Shown here: positions 719-6,650 of the stretch, in pieces
Layout: each line of letters opens with the position of its first letter
How positions within the stretch are numbered: position 1 is the first letter of the stretch
From: Desulfobulbaceae bacterium
GTDB lineage: Bacteria; Desulfobacterota; Desulfobulbia; Desulfobulbales; SURF-16
DNA: 64,000 nucleotides
NCBI GenBank assembly: GCA_020444175.1
Contig: JAHLLM010000011.1
Span: 1-64,000 of the forward strand
Reading direction: 5' to 3'
Notes under the pieces: generated by a model
The model's input: only the letters and a program-made list of their open reading frames with translations
What the model was told of the DNA's origin: nothing
Database searches by the model: none
Position numbers and translations under genes: made by a program

Positions 719-925
719 ATTATTCAGCGAGGTTCTAAAAATGAGCCTCAACTCCAGGCCGTAACTATTCAGATGTGCCTTAGATTTGGACAGGTAAGCG
801 CAACGAAGTGGAGACTCCGAGCAGGCCTGCGAGGCAGGTAAGCGAGCTTGCGAGACTCCGATAGCCCGTCTATGTGAGCAGGCCTGATCGTCCAAAAAAG
901 ATGAGAGGTGCATCTGAATAGTTAC
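719..925. repeat. Miniature inverted-repeat element, family A, copy 1
   Basis: Terminal inverted repeats of 20 bp at 761-780 and 906-925 (GTAACTATTCAG... and ...CTGAATAGTTAC) match at 18 of 20 positions. A conserved flank beginning TTATTCAGCGAGG lies at 719-758. The interior has direct AAGCG(A)/GAGACTCCGA blocks and no coding capacity beyond a fortuitous ORF. Related copies lie at 36158-36192, 42721-42907 and 61421-61500. Confidence 0.75.
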
Positions 926-953
926 TGTTTATTTACCTTTTCCATTTGTCGTG

Positions 954-1253
954 TCAGGTCGCATTCCGGTTTTTAAAAGTCCTATAAAGATCCCTTACCT
1001 GTTGACGAAGATGTTTAATCTGCTCGTGGTCTTCATTTAAGGAAAAGCGGGGCTCTGAAATGGAATATACGCTTTTATGCAGGTCATCGAGATAAGCTTC
1101 CGTGGATCTGCACCATTCATCTGTGCAGATGGAACTCATCTCCGCGGCCTGTTTCAGCTCATCTTCCACAACCTGGACGGCTTTTTTCAATTCTGTAACA
1201 AAACTTCGATGAGCCTTGAGCATCGCTGCTTCCATGTCTTTCTGCATTTTCAT
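954..1253 (-). CDS. Small helical protein, function unknown
   Basis: A 99-aa charged protein predicted to be almost entirely helical or coiled coil (MKMQKDMEAAMLKAHRSF at the start). It has two Cys near residues 43-48 and no signal peptide. An AAAGGAG ribosome-binding site lies 6-7 nt before the ATG at 1253. Upstream on the same strand is a sigma54-like promoter (1315-1330), followed by the palindromic sites at 1454-1487 shared with the divergent ORF at 1670. I do not recognise the family. The good ribosome-binding site and promoter context support a real gene. Confidence 0.7.
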   Translation of the reverse strand: MKMQKDMEAAMLKAHRSFVTELKKAVQVVEDELKQAAEMSSICTDEWCRSTEAYLDDLHKSVYSISEPRFSLNEDHEQIKHLRQQVRDLYRTFKNRNAT

Positions 1254-1314
1254 AATGTTTCTCCTTTATTGTTTTGTTTTATGCGTACTCAACCCTGAAA
1301 TTAAAATGAAATAC

Positions 1315-1330
1315 AGCAAAGAACGGGCCA
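1315..1330 (-). promoter_or_regulatory. Sigma54-like promoter for the 954-1253 gene
   Basis: On the minus strand the sequence reads TGGCCCGTTCTTTGCT. It has GG and GC separated by 10 nt and a consensus TTGCT at -12. It lies about 62 bp upstream of the ATG at 1253 and about 130-150 bp from the palindromes at 1454-1487. Confidence 0.55.
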
Positions 1331-1453
1331 CTGAGTGGAACGATTTTTACTAACTGCCTTAGATTTTTGTTTACCGGTTATCCTCTATAGATAGAGTAAA
1401 CAGACATTGACTCAAAATGCGTGCTGCTCTTTCCGCCCAGATGCAGATGCACT

Positions 1454-1487
1454 ATCCTGCAGAGCAGGATTTATCCTGTCCGACAGG
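1454..1487. promoter_or_regulatory. Tandem palindromic enhancer-like sites
   Basis: ATCCTGC-AGA-GCAGGAT (1454-1470) is a perfect 7-bp dyad. CCTGTC-C-GACAGG (1475-1487) is a second one. They sit between divergent sigma54-like promoters, at the spacing expected for a bacterial enhancer-binding protein. The same palindrome recurs at 2549-2567 and 5645-5659. Confidence 0.6.
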
Positions 1488-1552
1488 CCTGAAGCAACTA
1501 TTTTTGGATATGCACAATTGACACAAAGCAAGACAGCCTGCTCTTTTCAGAA

Positions 1553-1568
1553 AGGCATGATTTATGCT
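1553..1568 (+). promoter_or_regulatory. Sigma54-like promoter toward the 1670 ORF
   Basis: The sequence reads AGGCATGATTTATGCT, with GG (1554-1555) and GC (1566-1567) 10 nt apart. The -12 box is TATGCT rather than TTGCT, so this is the weakest of the six candidates. It is centred about 90 bp from the palindrome at 1454-1470. Confidence 0.4.
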
Positions 1569-1669
1569 CTATTATCTTGTGTTTTTTATATGTACAGAGC
1601 CTCTCTTAAACCTAAATAGGAGTTTCAAAATCTCAATGTAAAAAAGGAATAAATATAAAAGGAATAAAA

Positions 1670-1966
1670 TTGAGAAAATTTCACCGATTTTTAGGTGCTT
1701 GTCTCGCTTTTTTCCTTCTGCTTCAGGGTGGAAGCGGTATGTTGATATCTTTTGGAGAATTAACCGGATAGGCGGAACATTCGCATGTATCCGTCATTGA
1801 AACGAAACGACTGTGGCCAGGAAAGAAAGCGGATTATCGCTCTCAGCTGAAATGGCCTGTCCGGATTATCCCGTTACCTGATGGGAAGCACCTGCAACCA
1901 AGTTGCCGGTTAGTTTCGCACCCTGCCCGGTGTAATCCAGGGAGACTATTTTATGGCGATTTTTAA
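1670..1966 (+). pseudogene. Short exported ORF with in-frame TAG, probable gene remnant
   Basis: A TTG start at 1670 is preceded by AAAAGGA (1657-1663). The first 33 codons encode a basic n-region and hydrophobic core typical of a signal peptide (RKFHRFLGACLAFFLLLQ). A TAG at 1769-1771 ends it. The same frame then stays open to a TAA at 1964-1966, overlapping the tail of the convergent CBS gene. Either a 33-aa peptide is made, or a roughly 98-aa secreted protein has been broken by a nonsense mutation. It lies downstream of the 1553-1568 sigma54-like promoter. No family is recognised. Confidence 0.4.
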
Positions 1967-2362
1967 CAGGTCAAGACTTGAAACCAGGCCAATATGCTTA
2001 TCGTCAAGTCCGGATATCAAAAGATGATGCACGCCGGAAACATTCATCAAAGCAATCGCATTTTTAACGCTTTGAGCTGAATCTAATTGCACACAGGGCG
2101 ATTTTGTCTTTTTTGTAGTTATCAGTTCACAGGGGGTCATGCAGGATGTGACCACCGTTGCGTCAAGATCGACGTTCTCTTCAAAACAGAACATTAAATC
2201 CTTATCTGTGAGGACACCAATCACTTCATCCCCGTCCTTAACTACAAGAGCCATACTTTTGACGGCAATCATCTTTTCAGCAGCGGTTCGCATGCTGTCG
2301 TTCACATCTATACTCTGAATCTCCCAGTTGATAGCTTTTTCAATTTCGTCATTTAGTCCCAT
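1946..2362 (-). CDS. CBS-domain pair protein
   Basis: A 138-aa cytoplasmic protein made of two CBS motifs (about residues 12-65 and 78-136), with the typical VIGVLTDKDL and HIGLVSSLDLL strands. Such stand-alone CBS pairs (Bateman modules) usually bind adenine nucleotides and report energy or stress status; the partner cannot be read from this sequence. The ATG at 2362 has AAGGAG 8 nt upstream. The gene is divergent from the S10 peptidase, and the intergenic region holds a sigma54-like promoter for each gene and one palindrome (2549-2567), so it is probably induced with the peptidase. Confidence 0.9.
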   Translation of the reverse strand: MGLNDEIEKAINWEIQSIDVNDSMRTAAEKMIAVKSMALVVKDGDEVIGVLTDKDLMFCFEENVDLDATVVTSCMTPCELITTKKTKSPCVQLDSAQSVKNAIALMNVSGVHHLLISGLDDKHIGLVSSLDLLKIAIK

Positions 2363-2473
2363 TTCTTTTCACTCCTTATGTAGTATGTATCAATCAACGG
2401 AGGAACGCTGTCTGTGTTTTTCTTTGACATGACACATGTCTTCAACAGCATCTTCCACGCAAAATGCTTTTTT

Positions 2474-2489
2474 TGCACATCTCATGCCA
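2474..2489 (-). promoter_or_regulatory. Sigma54-like promoter for the CBS gene
   Basis: On the minus strand: TGGCATGAGATGTGCA. GG and GC are 10 nt apart. The -24 box is good and the -12 box (TGTGCA) is imperfect. It lies about 112 bp upstream of the CBS ATG and 70 bp from the palindrome centre at 2558. Confidence 0.45.
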
Positions 2490-2548
2490 TTTTCTATATG
2501 CATTCTGCATTATTTAGAGAAAAAGGATTATCCATTTCATGTAAGAAT

Positions 2549-2567
2549 AATCCTGCACAACAGGATT
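2549..2567. promoter_or_regulatory. Palindromic enhancer-like site
   Basis: AATCCTG-CACAA-CAGGATT is a perfect 7-bp dyad between the divergent CBS and S10 peptidase genes. It is similar to the palindromes at 1454-1470 and 5645-5659. The rest of the 2363-2808 gap contains no credible gene; the open frame at 2436-2690 has no ribosome-binding site and no recognisable protein. Confidence 0.6.
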
Positions 2568-2641
2568 GATTATCGCCATTTGAGTTCTGTTATTGGTCTT
2601 TATTTCTGTAGTTCTTTGATAATCAGCACATTAATAGACTA

Positions 2642-2657
2642 TGGCAACATTCTTGCT
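2642..2657 (+). promoter_or_regulatory. Sigma54-like promoter for the S10 peptidase
   Basis: TGGCAACATTCTTGCT fits the TGGCA-N-TTGCT consensus well, with GG (2643-2644) and GC (2655-2656) 10 nt apart. It lies 152 bp upstream of the ATG at 2809 and about 85 bp from the palindrome. Confidence 0.6.
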
Positions 2658-2808
2658 AAATTATTTCTACAGCATACAGCTGCTTTATAGCAGTCCGCAA
2701 ATTATCAATGGCTGCTTGTTGTGCCAAATGAAACAACTTTTGGGGAAGAATATATCATCAAGCTCGTTTCGAGGCTTTTTACCTGTCCATCACCTTAAAG
2801 GAGATAAA

Positions 2809-4446
2809 ATGGTGCGTTTGAGATGTGGCAAAATAAAGTTCTTTGCAGGAAGTGCGATCCTGTTTTTAATCGGTCCCTTGCTTTTTCTTTCAGTTGCACT
2901 GGCGGAGGATGAAAAAAAAGGTTTAGCCGATAATGAACACCCCCGGTCTGCAAAAACTGAAAAATCGAATCGTTCCGTTACCAAACATACCCTGCAATCA
3001 AAACGGGGAATGATTGAATATGTAGCGGTTGCCGACTCCATGAAGATTTCAGGCAAAGAGGAAAAACCGATCGGCGATATTTTCTATACCTCTTACACAG
3101 TAAACACCAATACAGAGGAACAACGCCCCCTGACCTTTGTCTTTAACGGAGGACCTGGAGCCGCGTCGGCCTATCTCCATCTTGGCGCCCTTGGTCCAGT
3201 GCGAATAGTATTTAACGATGACGGCACAGTTCCCAGGCCCCCGGCTCGTCTTGAAACCAATACCTCAAGCTGGCTTTTTTTTACTGACCTGGTTTTTGTA
3301 GATCCCATCGGCACAGGGTATAGCCGTATCTTTGAGCACGAGACGTATCACAACAACCCGCCATCAGATATCTCTCAAAAACAACACTTTTCCGTCCCTG
3401 ATTCTCCGAATGCCTGGGGAGTGGCTGAAGACGGACGTATTCTTGCCGAATTCATACGTCTCTATTTAACCCGTGAACAACGCTGGCTTTCTCCGCTTTT
3501 TCTGGCAGGAGAAAGTTATGGCGGCTTTCGGATAGCACGACTTTCACGACTCTTACAGGCTGAATTCGGTATCGGCCTGAACGGATTGATCCTGATTTCT
3601 CCCGCCCTCGATTTCAGCCTCCTTTGGGGTAACGATCAGAGTCTGTTGCCGTGGGCTGTTTTATTGCCCAGTTACAGTGCCGTTGCTGCATTCCATAAAA
3701 ATACAGACAACGACGTAGTGCAGAACGGCAATCCTCGCTCCGGAGTTCTGCATGTTGAAAAATTCGCTCTGTCCGACTTTCTGAGCGGTCTTGCAGGAGG
3801 GCAGATAGATAGGGAAGACTGGTTCAAAAAACTTGAGGATATCACGGGAATTCCCAAGAAAACCATCAAAGTATGGCAGGGCCGAATACCGCCTATAAAG
3901 TTTGTCAAGACGCTGCTGGAAAAAGACAGACGGCTGTTGAGTCTTTACGATGGCTCCGTAACCGTGATTGATTCCGATCCCTCTTCAGAGATATTGCGAG
4001 ACGGTGACCCCTATCTTGAGCAGCTTAACGTGCCTGTTACCACTGCTTTCAACAGCTACATCCGAAAAACACTGGGTTACAAAAGTGATCGCCCTTATCT
4101 TTTGCTCAATGACGAGGTTTTTGGATCCTGGAACTGGCGCTCCGGCATTCATGGAAAACAGGGGTACGCCAATGCTGTTGACCACTTACAAAAAACCATA
4201 AGTCTGAATCCAGAAATCAGGGTTCTTATCATGCACGGTATTTTTGATCTTGTGACGCCCTATTTTGCCTCCGTTACCATCGTCAATCAATTGGATCTTG
4301 ATCCTCAATTACGGAACAATATTACAATAAAAACCTACTCCGGGGGCCATATGCCCTATTTGAACAAACACTCCCGGGACAGTATGTACCTGGACGCTCT
4401 GCAGTTTTTTACTTCCGGACCGGACAAATCAAGAACTGTCGACTGA
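2809..4446 (+). CDS. Secreted S10-family serine carboxypeptidase
   Basis: A 545-aa alpha/beta-hydrolase of peptidase family S10, which removes C-terminal residues from peptides, usually at acid pH. A signal peptide covers residues 1-32 (cleavage near ALAED). NGGPG (113-117) is the oxyanion region. GESYGG (234-239) carries the nucleophile Ser236, and Asp480 and His514 (GGHMPY) complete the triad. The frame is open from 2641, but the ATG at 2809 is chosen because AAAGGAG precedes it by 6 nt and because it gives a proper signal peptide. A sigma54-like promoter and palindrome lie upstream. It is probably exported to the periplasm or outside. Confidence 0.93.
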   Translation: MVRLRCGKIKFFAGSAILFLIGPLLFLSVALAEDEKKGLADNEHPRSAKTEKSNRSVTKHTLQSKRGMIEYVAVADSMKISGKEEKPIGDIFYTSYTVNTNTEEQRPLTFVFNGGPGAASAYLHLGALGPVRIVFNDDGTVPRPPARLETNTSSWLFFTDLVFVDPIGTGYSRIFEHETYHNNPPSDISQKQHFSVPDSPNAWGVAEDGRILAEFIRLYLTREQRWLSPLFLAGESYGGFRIARLSRLLQAEFGIGLNGLILISPALDFSLLWGNDQSLLPWAVLLPSYSAVAAFHKNTDNDVVQNGNPRSGVLHVEKFALSDFLSGLAGGQIDREDWFKKLEDITGIPKKTIKVWQGRIPPIKFVKTLLEKDRRLLSLYDGSVTVIDSDPSSEILRDGDPYLEQLNVPVTTAFNSYIRKTLGYKSDRPYLLLNDEVFGSWNWRSGIHGKQGYANAVDHLQKTISLNPEIRVLIMHGIFDLVTPYFASVTIVNQLDLDPQLRNNITIKTYSGGHMPYLNKHSRDSMYLDALQFFTSGPDKSRTVD

Positions 4447-4469
4447 CGATTATAGTGTGAGGCAGATGA

Positions 4470-4491
4470 CGCAAAGGCCTTTGCCTTTGTG
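4470..4491 (+). terminator. Hairpin after S10 peptidase
   Basis: CGCAAAGGC (4470-4478) pairs with GCCTTTGTG (4483-4491) around a 4-nt loop, with one G-T pair. No T-run follows, so it may be a weak or factor-assisted terminator. Confidence 0.4.
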
Positions 4492-4568
4492 CCTTAACTC
4501 TCATGCCACTTATTCCTTAAAGCTCACGGACTAAACACGGTGGATAGAACCCTGCAAAGGTATAATCG

Positions 4569-5087
4569 GTGGATATCATCAAAAAATTTGTTGCCGCTTT
4601 TACCTGGGAAATAATCCTGTTAACCGGGATTAAGGTGACCCTGTTTCTTCTTTTCGCCTGGATCATTTCCAAGATTTTACAAAAATTCCTACAACGTCTT
4701 GAAATACACCTCCTCAAAAAAAAGCGAACTGGAAGGAGAGCCCCCTTCGGAATCATAAAAACGAATTGAAACCATAATCCGTTTGTTGAAACGAAACAGG
4801 CTGCCATGCTTGCCTTATGGCTGACGGTATGCCTAGTCATTTTAAAGGAACTCGGGGTGGATATGTTTGCTGATTCAGCTGTTTTCATCAAAGGACGAAT
4901 ACGGACAAAACCGATTCGACAATGGATGGTGGGCCGCGAATTCCTGCGTCGGGTCAAACATGCCTTTGATGATCACAACATTGAAGTATCCTTTTCCAAC
5001 CGGAAAGTATATGTCGACGAAAAGAGCAGACCATTTGATTTACAGATTCTGGATAAATTCCAGAAAAACAAAGAGCCGGCAGAGTAA
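4569..5087 (+). pseudogene. MscS-family mechanosensitive channel, internally deleted
   Basis: A GTG at 4569 with AAAGG upstream opens an MscS-like N-terminus (one clear membrane helix, then KRIETIIRLLKR after a frame change). The frame breaks near 4730-4765. The distal part (4806-5087) jumps from an ELGVD that precedes the pore helix directly to FADSAV and the C-terminal RIRTKPIRQWMVGREFLRR segment of the same family. About 170 residues of pore and beta domain are missing, so no working channel can be made. The LGVD motif normally occurs at both breakpoints, suggesting recombination between short repeats. An intact MscS relative with a cNMP-like domain is at 30543-32093. Confidence 0.8.
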
Positions 5088-5109
5088 ACGAGCAGGATGT
5101 CCTGACCGT

Positions 5110-5364
5110 TTATTTGAAAACGCCCCCCAGGTCAGCGCTCTCTTCATTAATTACTGCGGCAAGCCGCTCCATGAGCTTCTGCATCTTGTCTCCTTTCTCT
5201 TCCATTGCCTCTTTAGCGATCTCCGATGCCTTACTATATGCTTTTTCAAAGTTATCATCATCAAGTCCACTGATTTCCTGGGCATCTTTTTTGTTGATGT
5301 GCCCTGTATGAGCAAAAACAGAGGCTAATACTCCGGTCATTTTTTTCACTTTTTCTTTGGGCAT
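5110..5364 (-). CDS. Small charged helical protein, unknown
   Basis: An 84-aa protein rich in Lys/Glu, probably all helical (KKMTGVLASVFAHTGHINKK near the start). It has no signal peptide or Cys. The ATG at 5364 follows AAAGGAG by 8 nt. It is divergent from the EncFtn gene. A good sigma54-like promoter (5524-5539, minus strand) and the palindrome at 5645-5659 lie upstream, so it may be co-induced with EncFtn. Function unknown. Confidence 0.75.
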   Translation of the reverse strand: MPKEKVKKMTGVLASVFAHTGHINKKDAQEISGLDDDNFEKAYSKASEIAKEAMEEKGDKMQKLMERLAAVINEESADLGGVFK

Positions 5365-5523
5365 GTTTCGTTCTCCTTTTATCAGTTATTTTTACTATTC
5401 AAACAGGCAACTCTCTTGATTTTAATGGATTCGACGTCTTGATGGCGTCGCAAAAAAAATCCGTACAGTTGCGTTGTTGAGTTTGATTTGCTGCAAAATA
5501 AATATTTGAACAGTATTAAAAAA

Positions 5524-5539
5524 AGCAAATATTATTCCA
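5524..5539 (-). promoter_or_regulatory. Sigma54-like promoter for the 84-aa gene
   Basis: On the minus strand: TGGAATAATATTTGCT, with a consensus TTGCT at -12 and GG-N10-GC spacing. It lies 160 bp upstream of the ATG at 5364 and about 114 bp from the palindrome centre. Confidence 0.5.
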
Positions 5540-5644
5540 TGAGAACCGAAATACTCTTTTCACTGTTTTGAGCCGGTTTTCTCTCGTGATGCCGTCAGAA
5601 TCAAGGCGTTTTTTGCATCAATCCATCCTGTGCAAAGGAAAAAA

Positions 5645-5659
5645 TCCTGCCCAGCAGGA
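5645..5659. promoter_or_regulatory. Palindromic enhancer-like site
   Basis: TCCTGC-CCA-GCAGGA is a perfect 6-bp dyad. It lies between divergent sigma54-like promoters and matches the sites at 1454-1470 and 2549-2567. The rest of 5365-5900 has no credible gene. Confidence 0.6.
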
Positions 5660-5743
5660 CTATTTCGACCTTTGCCTGCATGGTATGACATCAAAAAAAT
5701 ATTTATAAATCTCAAACCAACTGACCGACCGGCTTTTGCTCTG

Positions 5744-5759
5744 TGGCATATATTTTGCT
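5744..5759 (+). promoter_or_regulatory. Sigma54-like promoter for EncFtn
   Basis: TGGCATATATTTTGCT has GG (5745-5746) and GC (5757-5758) separated by 10 nt, with good -24 and -12 boxes. It lies about 93 bp from the palindrome centre and 142 bp before the EncFtn ATG. Confidence 0.6.
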
Positions 5760-5900
5760 GATTTACAGAATACCTGCTGATCGTTTTGTCGCGAAAGTGC
5801 ATGCTCTTTTATGTATAGCATAACTTTCAGATCAGCCATCCAAAAGCACTGAAAACAAGAGCAAACGAAAAAAGTCATTCATGTCATTAAGGAGAAAAAA

Positions 5901-6200
5901 ATGGCACATGAAAATCTGCACGAAGACAGAACAGCACTTTCAAAAAACACCCAGGATATGCATCGAGCTATCATTTCACTTATCGAGGAACTGGAGGCGG
6001 TTGATTGGTACAACCAGCGAGCCGACGTTTGCGAAGATCAGGATTTACAAGCCATTCTCATCCATAACCGCGACGAGGAAAAAGAACACGCAGCTATGCT
6101 CATCGAATGGCTTCGTCGCACTGACAAGAGGTTCTCCAAAGAACTCGAAGAATATCTTTTTTCGGAAAAAGATATCGTTGATCAGGAAAAAAACAGATAA
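5901..6200 (+). CDS. EncFtn, encapsulated-ferritin-type ferroxidase
   Basis: A 99-aa protein of the EncFtn family: two-helix half-ferritins that assemble as an annular decamer and oxidise Fe(II) for storage inside encapsulin shells. The diagnostic MHRAIISLIEELEAVDWY and HNRDEEKEHAAM segments are present. By comparison with the R. rubrum protein, Glu30, Glu60 and His63 would form the ferroxidase site, and Glu29/Glu32/Trp36 the entry site. AAGGAG lies 6 nt before the ATG. No encapsulin shell gene is adjacent, and the short C-terminus after LFSEK shows no obvious shell-targeting peptide. Upstream lies a sigma54-like promoter. Confidence 0.88.
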   Translation: MAHENLHEDRTALSKNTQDMHRAIISLIEELEAVDWYNQRADVCEDQDLQAILIHNRDEEKEHAAMLIEWLRRTDKRFSKELEEYLFSEKDIVDQEKNR

Positions 6201-6289: not shown

Positions 6290-6650
6290 GATAAAAAATA
6301 ATCTGTGACAACAATTGGTAATTCCTATCAATCTGCAGATTGAAAAAACGAAAAACACGTTCCGGTTTTATAGAAGCCCCTAAAACCGTCTCTGCTGATG
6401 AACTCTTTCAGGTGAGAGTCTCCATCGGCAAGGAGATCGCTAACAAATACCACGGAACATCATATCCGTTGGATCCAGCTCTACTTTAAACCGGAGAACG
6501 AAAAATTCACTTATCAGATCAGCAATTTTGAATTCACTGCACATGGAGAATCGGTCCAGGGTGGGTGGGGCTTTATGGAAGGCTTTTCCCATATACTTTC
6601 TCCGCTTCTGTAAAGTCAGCAAAGACACTCCCGGCGTATTAGCCGCTGTA
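6290..6650 (+). pseudogene. Superoxide reductase (neelaredoxin type), frameshifted
   Basis: Three frames together rebuild a class II superoxide reductase, which reduces superoxide at a His4-Cys iron site. Pieces in order: YQSAD-stop-KNEKHVPV (6327-6369, TGA replacing the usual Trp codon), then IEAPKTV...VSIGKEIAN (about 6370-6444), then after a 1-nt shift NTTEHHIRWIQLYFKP...FEFTAHGESVQG (6446-6562), and a drifted end in a third frame (TFSASVKSAKT). The terminal Cys/His segment is lost and the end overlaps the convergent gene at 6639. It is not functional. An intact EncFtn lies just upstream. Confidence 0.85.

Follow-up and report, generated by a model that had tools for sequence, protein, structure and literature searches.

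Palindromic dyads flanked by sigma54-type sites suggest a stress regulon in a Desulfobulbaceae bacterium

Three intergenic regions near the start of the window (the first 64 kb of contig C63 in the 5.42 Mb, 90-contig genome of a Desulfobulbaceae bacterium) are probably sigma54-dependent divergent promoters, each centered on a palindromic dyad that would be bound by an NtrC-type enhancer-binding protein (EBP) with a pseudo-receiver domain, driving a stress or stationary-phase regulon. A first-pass annotation had proposed a sigma54 regulon for these regions, and our analysis supports and extends that interpretation, as the dyads are linked to sigma54-type sites and a predicted activator was found. 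The paired signal also occurs at stress-protection genes elsewhere in the genome and in related bacteria, usually close to one uncharacterized activator gene, and the window is thus most likely one part of a stress regulon that has not been described. We lean, with more reserve, towards the broader reading that several families of one order of sulfate-reducer-type bacteria, probably Desulfobulbales, share a sigma54 general stress regulon commanded by an unnamed clade of NtrC-type proteins with a pseudo-receiver not open to the usual phosphorylation.

Dyads and sigma54-type sites

The three TCCTGC/GCAGGA-type palindromes of the first-pass annotation are present as exact copies of the form TCCTGY-N3-RCAGGA (TCCTGYNNNRCAGGA), and the second dyad that it placed beside the first of them is found with one mismatch (Table 1). 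Dyad matches with at most one mismatch number five in the window against 0.62 expected, a count reached in 0 of 100 shuffles, and genome-wide the pattern TCCTGN5CAGGA occurs 39 times compared to four for a reversed control. For the shorter form CCTGYN3RCAGG, part of the excess is due to a dispersed repeat bearing CCTGCGAGGCAGG, which inflates palindrome counts; this repeat is present at window positions 741-930, and BLAST finds 13 matches to it, full or partial, in 1.27 Mb of the genome.

Sites of the sigma54 type were scored against a matrix that had been built in advance on the general -24/-12 consensus. All six outward GG-N10-GC sites are located where they had been claimed, and they flank all three dyads, bearing out the shared divergent architecture of the three regions. 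Five of them have the TGGCAY-N5-TTGCW context of sigma54-dependent promoters and score 12.8-17.2 bits, while the sixth, at 1553-1568, is weak and doubtful (11.6 bits). Distances from dyad center to site center on the two sides are 140/98, 77/92, and 121/99 bp for the three dyads. A position flanked on either side by an outward site that scores 11.5 bits or more at a distance of 60-160 bp is found with P=0.0017 (0.17%) among intergenic positions in the 1.27 Mb and 0.0002 among all positions, and all three dyads are flanked in this way. Genome-wide, TGGCAYN5TTGCW with at most one mismatch occurs 242/251 times against 97/96 for controls, and a plain consensus scan of the window found no excess of sigma54-like sites (31 versus 36 expected). 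The unusual feature is the arrangement of the sites around the dyads rather than the density of the motif.

Linkage and pairing of the dyads were computed in 1.27 Mb of the 5.4 Mb genome. Of the exact dyads, 4 of 12 have a strong sigma54 site 50-180 bp downstream, and so do 5 of 40 with one mismatch, fractions that are biased upward because part of the fetched genome was picked for its dyads; twelve permuted control half-sites, compared on the same sequence at equal mismatch levels, gave zero or one match each. The dyads are thus linked to sigma54 sites beyond the level of the permuted controls. The companion condition, palindromes falling mostly inside genes, did not refute the interpretation either: many exact dyads are intragenic here and in other genomes, but these are mostly unpaired and unlinked. 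Among 18 intergenic dyads with at most one mismatch, eight partners lie within 16-80 bp, at spacings of 19 (two), 20 (five), and 25 bp (one), so that seven of the eight are tandem pairs at 19-20 bp; the control half-sites yield at most one intergenic dyad each. A spacing of 19-20 bp corresponds to two helical turns and fits paired activator sites of an EBP. Like known EBP upstream activating sequences, the dyads are paired, in helical phase, and upstream, at 67-158 bp from the promoter.

In the mechanism that we infer from these features, an NtrC-type EBP would bind the TCCTGY-N3-RCAGGA dyads, typically two in tandem at two helical turns, 70-160 bp upstream of -24/-12 promoters, loop to sigma54 RNA polymerase, and remodel it by ATP hydrolysis, opening both divergent promoters. 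The regulon so activated would cover iron storage, redox protection, DNA end joining, glycogen and trehalose metabolism, envelope BON proteins, and ribosome hibernation.

The candidate activator and conservation in relatives

As stated in the first-pass annotation, the window contains no sigma54 activator gene: the genome has about 49 strong EBPs, and the nearest PF00158 match lies at about 77 kb of the same contig. For the predicted NtrC-family activator, a candidate was found elsewhere in the genome and in relatives. Comparison of the EBP sets of a dyad-rich relative (G024) and a dyad-poor one (G005) led to one subfamily, with three members in the window genome (on contigs C33, C77, and C63), and a class-wide profile search separates genomes with the subfamily (at least 508 bits) from those without it (at most 380 bits). 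The most likely activator is the pseudo-receiver branch of this subfamily, of the C33 and C77 type. A sigma54-interaction AAA+ domain with GAFTGA is present (PF00158, 226 and 224 bits), as in NtrC-type EBPs. The phosphorylatable Asp of the receiver motif DVVxLD is replaced by N, K, or R in the C33, C77, G115, G164, G012, and G024 proteins, whereas the sister EBPs retain it, setting the clade apart from canonical response regulators. The usual phosphorylation route is consequently unlikely, and a stress signal would have to enter by another, phosphorylation-independent route. The degenerate receiver is combined with a SRSRLYDLLKKY-type recognition helix in the G115, G164, G012, and G024b proteins; the C33 and C77 proteins share the degenerate receiver of this branch and have the recognition helix SRSRLYQL.

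The genomic neighborhoods tie this clade both to tandem dyads and to genes of the window. The EBP gene adjoins a response regulator in G115, G164, and G012; also next to it are a dyad and an ortholog of the window 99-aa gene in G115, and tandem dyads and an ortholog of the window EncFtn gene in the other two genomes. Orthologs near clade EBP genes are 69% (G012) and 62% (G164) identical for EncFtn and 56% (G115) and 49% (G059) for the 99-aa gene. Genes that are dyad-linked in the window genome occur at 9 of 13 clade loci and 0 of 12 sister loci (p 0.0003), a comparison in which EncFtn, the 99-aa gene, and a 91-aa gene are independent evidence and KorAB and Trx150 are not, since some of the genes compared were chosen from the surroundings of C33 and C77. 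Tandem dyads (total mismatches at most 4, spacing 19-21, within about 7 kb of the EBP gene) are found once each in 12 of 15 clade loci, a number that counts the two of the window genome, and in 0 of 14 sister loci (p 9e-6), with 0-1 for permuted controls; five relatives have the pair no more than about 120 bp from the 3' end of the EBP gene. Public-genome matches listed were mostly unrelated EBPs, and no dyads were found around the closest sister type among them, that of Desulfopila aestuarii; this named match is why the order is taken to be probably Desulfobulbales.

Promoter conservation was examined for the EncFtn and 99-aa genes. The EncFtn site TGGCATATATTTTGCT corresponds to CGGCATTTATTTTGCA upstream of EncFtn in other genera (G164 and G012), and the 99-aa gene site TGGCCCGTTCTTTGCT to TGGCCCTTATCTTGCT upstream of the G115 ortholog. 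Dyads in these relatives are further upstream, at about 190 bp in G164, 300 bp in G115, and about 690 bp in G012; EBP-type activation tolerates distant sites by looping.

Dyad-linked genes in the window genome encode BON proteins, GlgC, superoxide reductase, an exonuclease/endonuclease/phosphatase protein, DJ-1/PfpI, a PLD/VTT protein, and glycogen/trehalose enzymes. In four relatives from the window's family and two others (G115, G164, G024, and G027), dyads are upstream of Ku, OsmC, superoxide reductase, SDR plus pirin, Hcp, and a hibernation-factor/cold-shock protein gene adjoining that of a LigD-type primase-polymerase, and close to DJ-1/PfpI and UspA genes; Ku has an identical promoter, TGGAGCGTTTTTTGCW, at 152 bp in two families. 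This content of stress-type Pfam families suggests that the dyad-linked genes form a general-stress regulon. Exact dyads are tandem or site-linked in 14 of 33 cases in these four genomes and in 1 of 17 cases in genomes without the EBP subfamily (G022 and G109; Fisher p 0.007). Raw dyad counts across 193 genomes were rejected as a marker, being too noisy, with coding-region coincidences dominating in G022, G109, and G049.

Contrary observations and alternative explanations

Several observations, together with the upward bias in linked fractions, weigh against a regulon run by the pseudo-receiver EBP. A number of intergenic dyads have no good sigma54 site, and some sites near dyads read TTGA and not TTGC at -12. 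Three clade loci lack a tandem pair, and in G049, which carries a sister EBP, no dyad is intergenic. The association of raw dyad counts with the EBP subfamily is weak (p 0.02 within the family), many exact dyads being coincidences in coding regions. The C33/C77 pair groups with the clade in one tree and not in another. Besides these two clade-like copies, the window genome has a third paralog whose receiver is intact (C63:76865-78271), and thus more than one candidate for the acting copy. Finally, rpoN was not located: an RpoN-box motif search of 1.27 Mb of the 5.4 Mb genome gave no match, so the gene lies in the rest of the genome or deviates from the pattern.

Among the alternatives, the one that survives best, though it appears unlikely, is a real sigma54 regulon in which another EBP binds the dyads and the pseudo-receiver EBP is a mere neighbor or a member. 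The many strong EBPs of the genome offer other binders, among them a PAS-type EBP on C40, 3 kb from a tandem dyad, and a second on C9 beside a one-mismatch dyad. The C40 protein was rejected as not conserved, being full length in only one relative, and so was an EBP on C24, the best conserved with G024, which is absent from the dyad-bearing G115 and G164 and present in genomes with zero dyads. Only at the pseudo-receiver clade do tandem dyads recur locus after locus. Two one-component EBPs that are related to each other (L065 7485-8927 and L067 2683-4086) have a Cys-rich PAS-like N terminus, and one of them adjoins a PEP-CTERM-like protein with a dyad upstream.

We consider it improbable that the dyads are operators of a repressor or of a sigma70-type activator, with the GG-N10-GC sites coincidental or under other control. 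The general frequency of sigma54-type motifs, the lack of an excess in the plain window scan, and the intergenic dyads without a sigma54 site would agree with this; the two-sided arrangement at all three dyads, rare among intergenic positions, and the conservation of two promoters across genera argue against it, as do sigma70-like matches in 1255-6000 that do not exceed chance (7 versus 8.5). There is very little to recommend the palindromes as RNA hairpins, terminators, or a dispersed repeat that no protein binds: they can fold (z about -1.8 to -2.2) and one scored as terminator-like on the minus strand (5661-5643), but they lie between divergent genes, far upstream of starts, their spacer bases vary while the half-sites are kept, hairpins do not explain the two-turn tandem spacing, and the repeat at 741-930 is a different sequence.

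Genes at the sites and relation to known systems

Five of the six units assigned to the window promoters in the first-pass annotation are retained, namely the 99-aa, CBS, S10, 84-aa, and EncFtn genes; the sixth, an open reading frame at 1670, is a doubtful 33-aa remnant with a stop (Table 1). The S10 start, read from the sequence, is corrected from 2641 to near 2809, and the S10 reading frame consequently does not overlap its own promoter. Directly 3' of EncFtn is a degenerate superoxide reductase (desulfoferrodoxin) remnant (6311-6565, plus strand), 60% identical over 87 aa to an intact copy at C22:3015-3410, and fragments of an MscS-type mechanosensitive channel gene at 4569-5087 (plus strand) are probably a pseudogene. 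Outside the window, two DsrC-type paralogs (C29 ~8740 and C77 ~83430) share a near-identical sigma54-like promoter, TGGCACAAATYTTGAR, with A for C at -12, and a small conserved protein with a LLHPRYLSYEDGNFDD-type motif, possibly part of signaling, occurs near tandem dyads or EBP genes (C77:87045-87446, C29:5747-6211, and the 3' end of G024 L199).

Table 1. Features of the window and related loci
Feature	Position	Strand	Remarks
99-aa gene, unknown family	954..1253	-	weak PhaP-like match below cut-off
Sigma54 -24/-12 site of 99-aa gene	1315..1330	-	TGGCCCGTTCTTTGCT; 17.2 bits
Dyad 1, predicted activator site	1455..1469		TCCTGCAGAGCAGGA; exact match; one half of tandem pair
Second dyad of tandem pair	1474..1488		TCCTGTCCGACAGGC; one mismatch; 19 bp from dyad 1
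Weak sigma54-like site	1553..1568	+	AGGCATGATTTATGCT; 11.6 bits; reading frame downstream decayed
33-aa signal-peptide-like remnant	1669..1770	+	ends in stop
CBS-pair protein, 138 aa	1946..2362	-	PF00571
Sigma54 site of CBS gene	2474..2489	-	TGGCATGAGATGTGCA; 15.9 bits
Dyad 2	2551..2565		TCCTGCACAACAGGA; exact match
Sigma54 site of S10 peptidase gene	2642..2657	+	TGGCAACATTCTTGCT; 12.8 bits
Exported serine carboxypeptidase (S10)	2809..4446	+	PF00450; start re-assigned after AAGGAG
84-aa gene, no known family	5110..5364	-	
Sigma54 site of 84-aa gene	5524..5539	-	TGGAATAATATTTGCT; 13.0 bits
Dyad 3	5645..5659		TCCTGCCCAGCAGGA; exact match
Sigma54 site of EncFtn gene	5744..5759	+	TGGCATATATTTTGCT; 16.4 bits
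EncFtn-like encapsulated ferritin, 99 aa	5901..6200	+	PF22277 1.6e-39
Tandem dyad	C40:20861/20880		upstream of two glgC genes with TGGCACAAAGCTTGCT
Tandem dyad	C7:1715/1735		upstream of BON gene with TGGCATAATATTTGCC
Tandem dyad	C77:86777/86797		
Tandem dyads	C29:6214/6234 and 8625/8645		
Tandem dyads	C33:17481/17501 and 28535/28555		
Pseudo-receiver EBP candidates	C33:35037-36488 and C77:92368-93843		window genome
Pseudo-receiver EBPs of relatives	G115 L321, G164 L322, G012 L424, G024 L440		

Sigma54 acting with an EBP is a known scheme, but our searches of the openly accessible literature returned no description of the dyad site, of the activator clade, of the regulon, or of any sigma54 stress regulon in this group. 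The system resembles sigma54/NtrC-type enhancer systems in its -24/-12 promoters, paired upstream dyads, and an EBP with GAFTGA, an AAA+ core, and a C-terminal Fis-like helix-turn-helix. It differs in a dyad not found as a described site and in a clade that falls below every curated NCBIfam EBP cut-off, the best score being 335 bits against 558.6 for NtrC (TIGR01818).

The closest functional parallel, likened by predicted targets, is DVU3305 of the sulfate reducer Desulfovibrio vulgaris, an EBP predicted to act on general-stress genes including those of UspA-type proteins (PMC3333781, PMC4641369). DVU3305 has a kinase and a lon-protease regulator as partners and acts mainly on two neighboring operons (PMC3333781, PMC4641369), and thus differs in partners and scale (PMC3333781); the main texts of these papers contain no TCCTG-type site (PMC3333781, PMC4641369). 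FleQ and other pseudo-receiver regulators likewise have a receiver-like domain without a phosphorylatable Asp before an NtrC-type core, but FleQ controls flagella and responds to cyclic di-GMP (PMC12632262); signal and targets of the present clade may differ. The PEP-CTERM response regulator PrsR (TIGR02915) has the same NtrC-type response regulator architecture, but the clade scores 293-311 bits against its cut-off of 502.6, and few of the predicted targets are PEP-CTERM genes.

Dedicated factors of the sigma70 family normally govern general stress responses, and the RpoS, EcfG, and SigB regulons include BON/OsmY, OsmC, trehalose and glycogen enzymes, Ku/LigD, and cardiolipin-synthase-like and YbhP-like proteins. 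The dyad-linked set is like these in its kinds of genes, and unlike them in having sigma54-type promoters, for which an activator driven by ATP would be required. A sigma54 version, if true, would be switched on by the activator's ATP hydrolysis with very low basal expression, and could allow anaerobic sulfate reducers to co-control iron storage, oxygen defense, DNA end joining, and storage sugars. The dyad site and the regulator clade provide sequence-based handles for annotating many unknown genes, and the system may serve to test how sigma54 activators are controlled by their pseudo-receivers.

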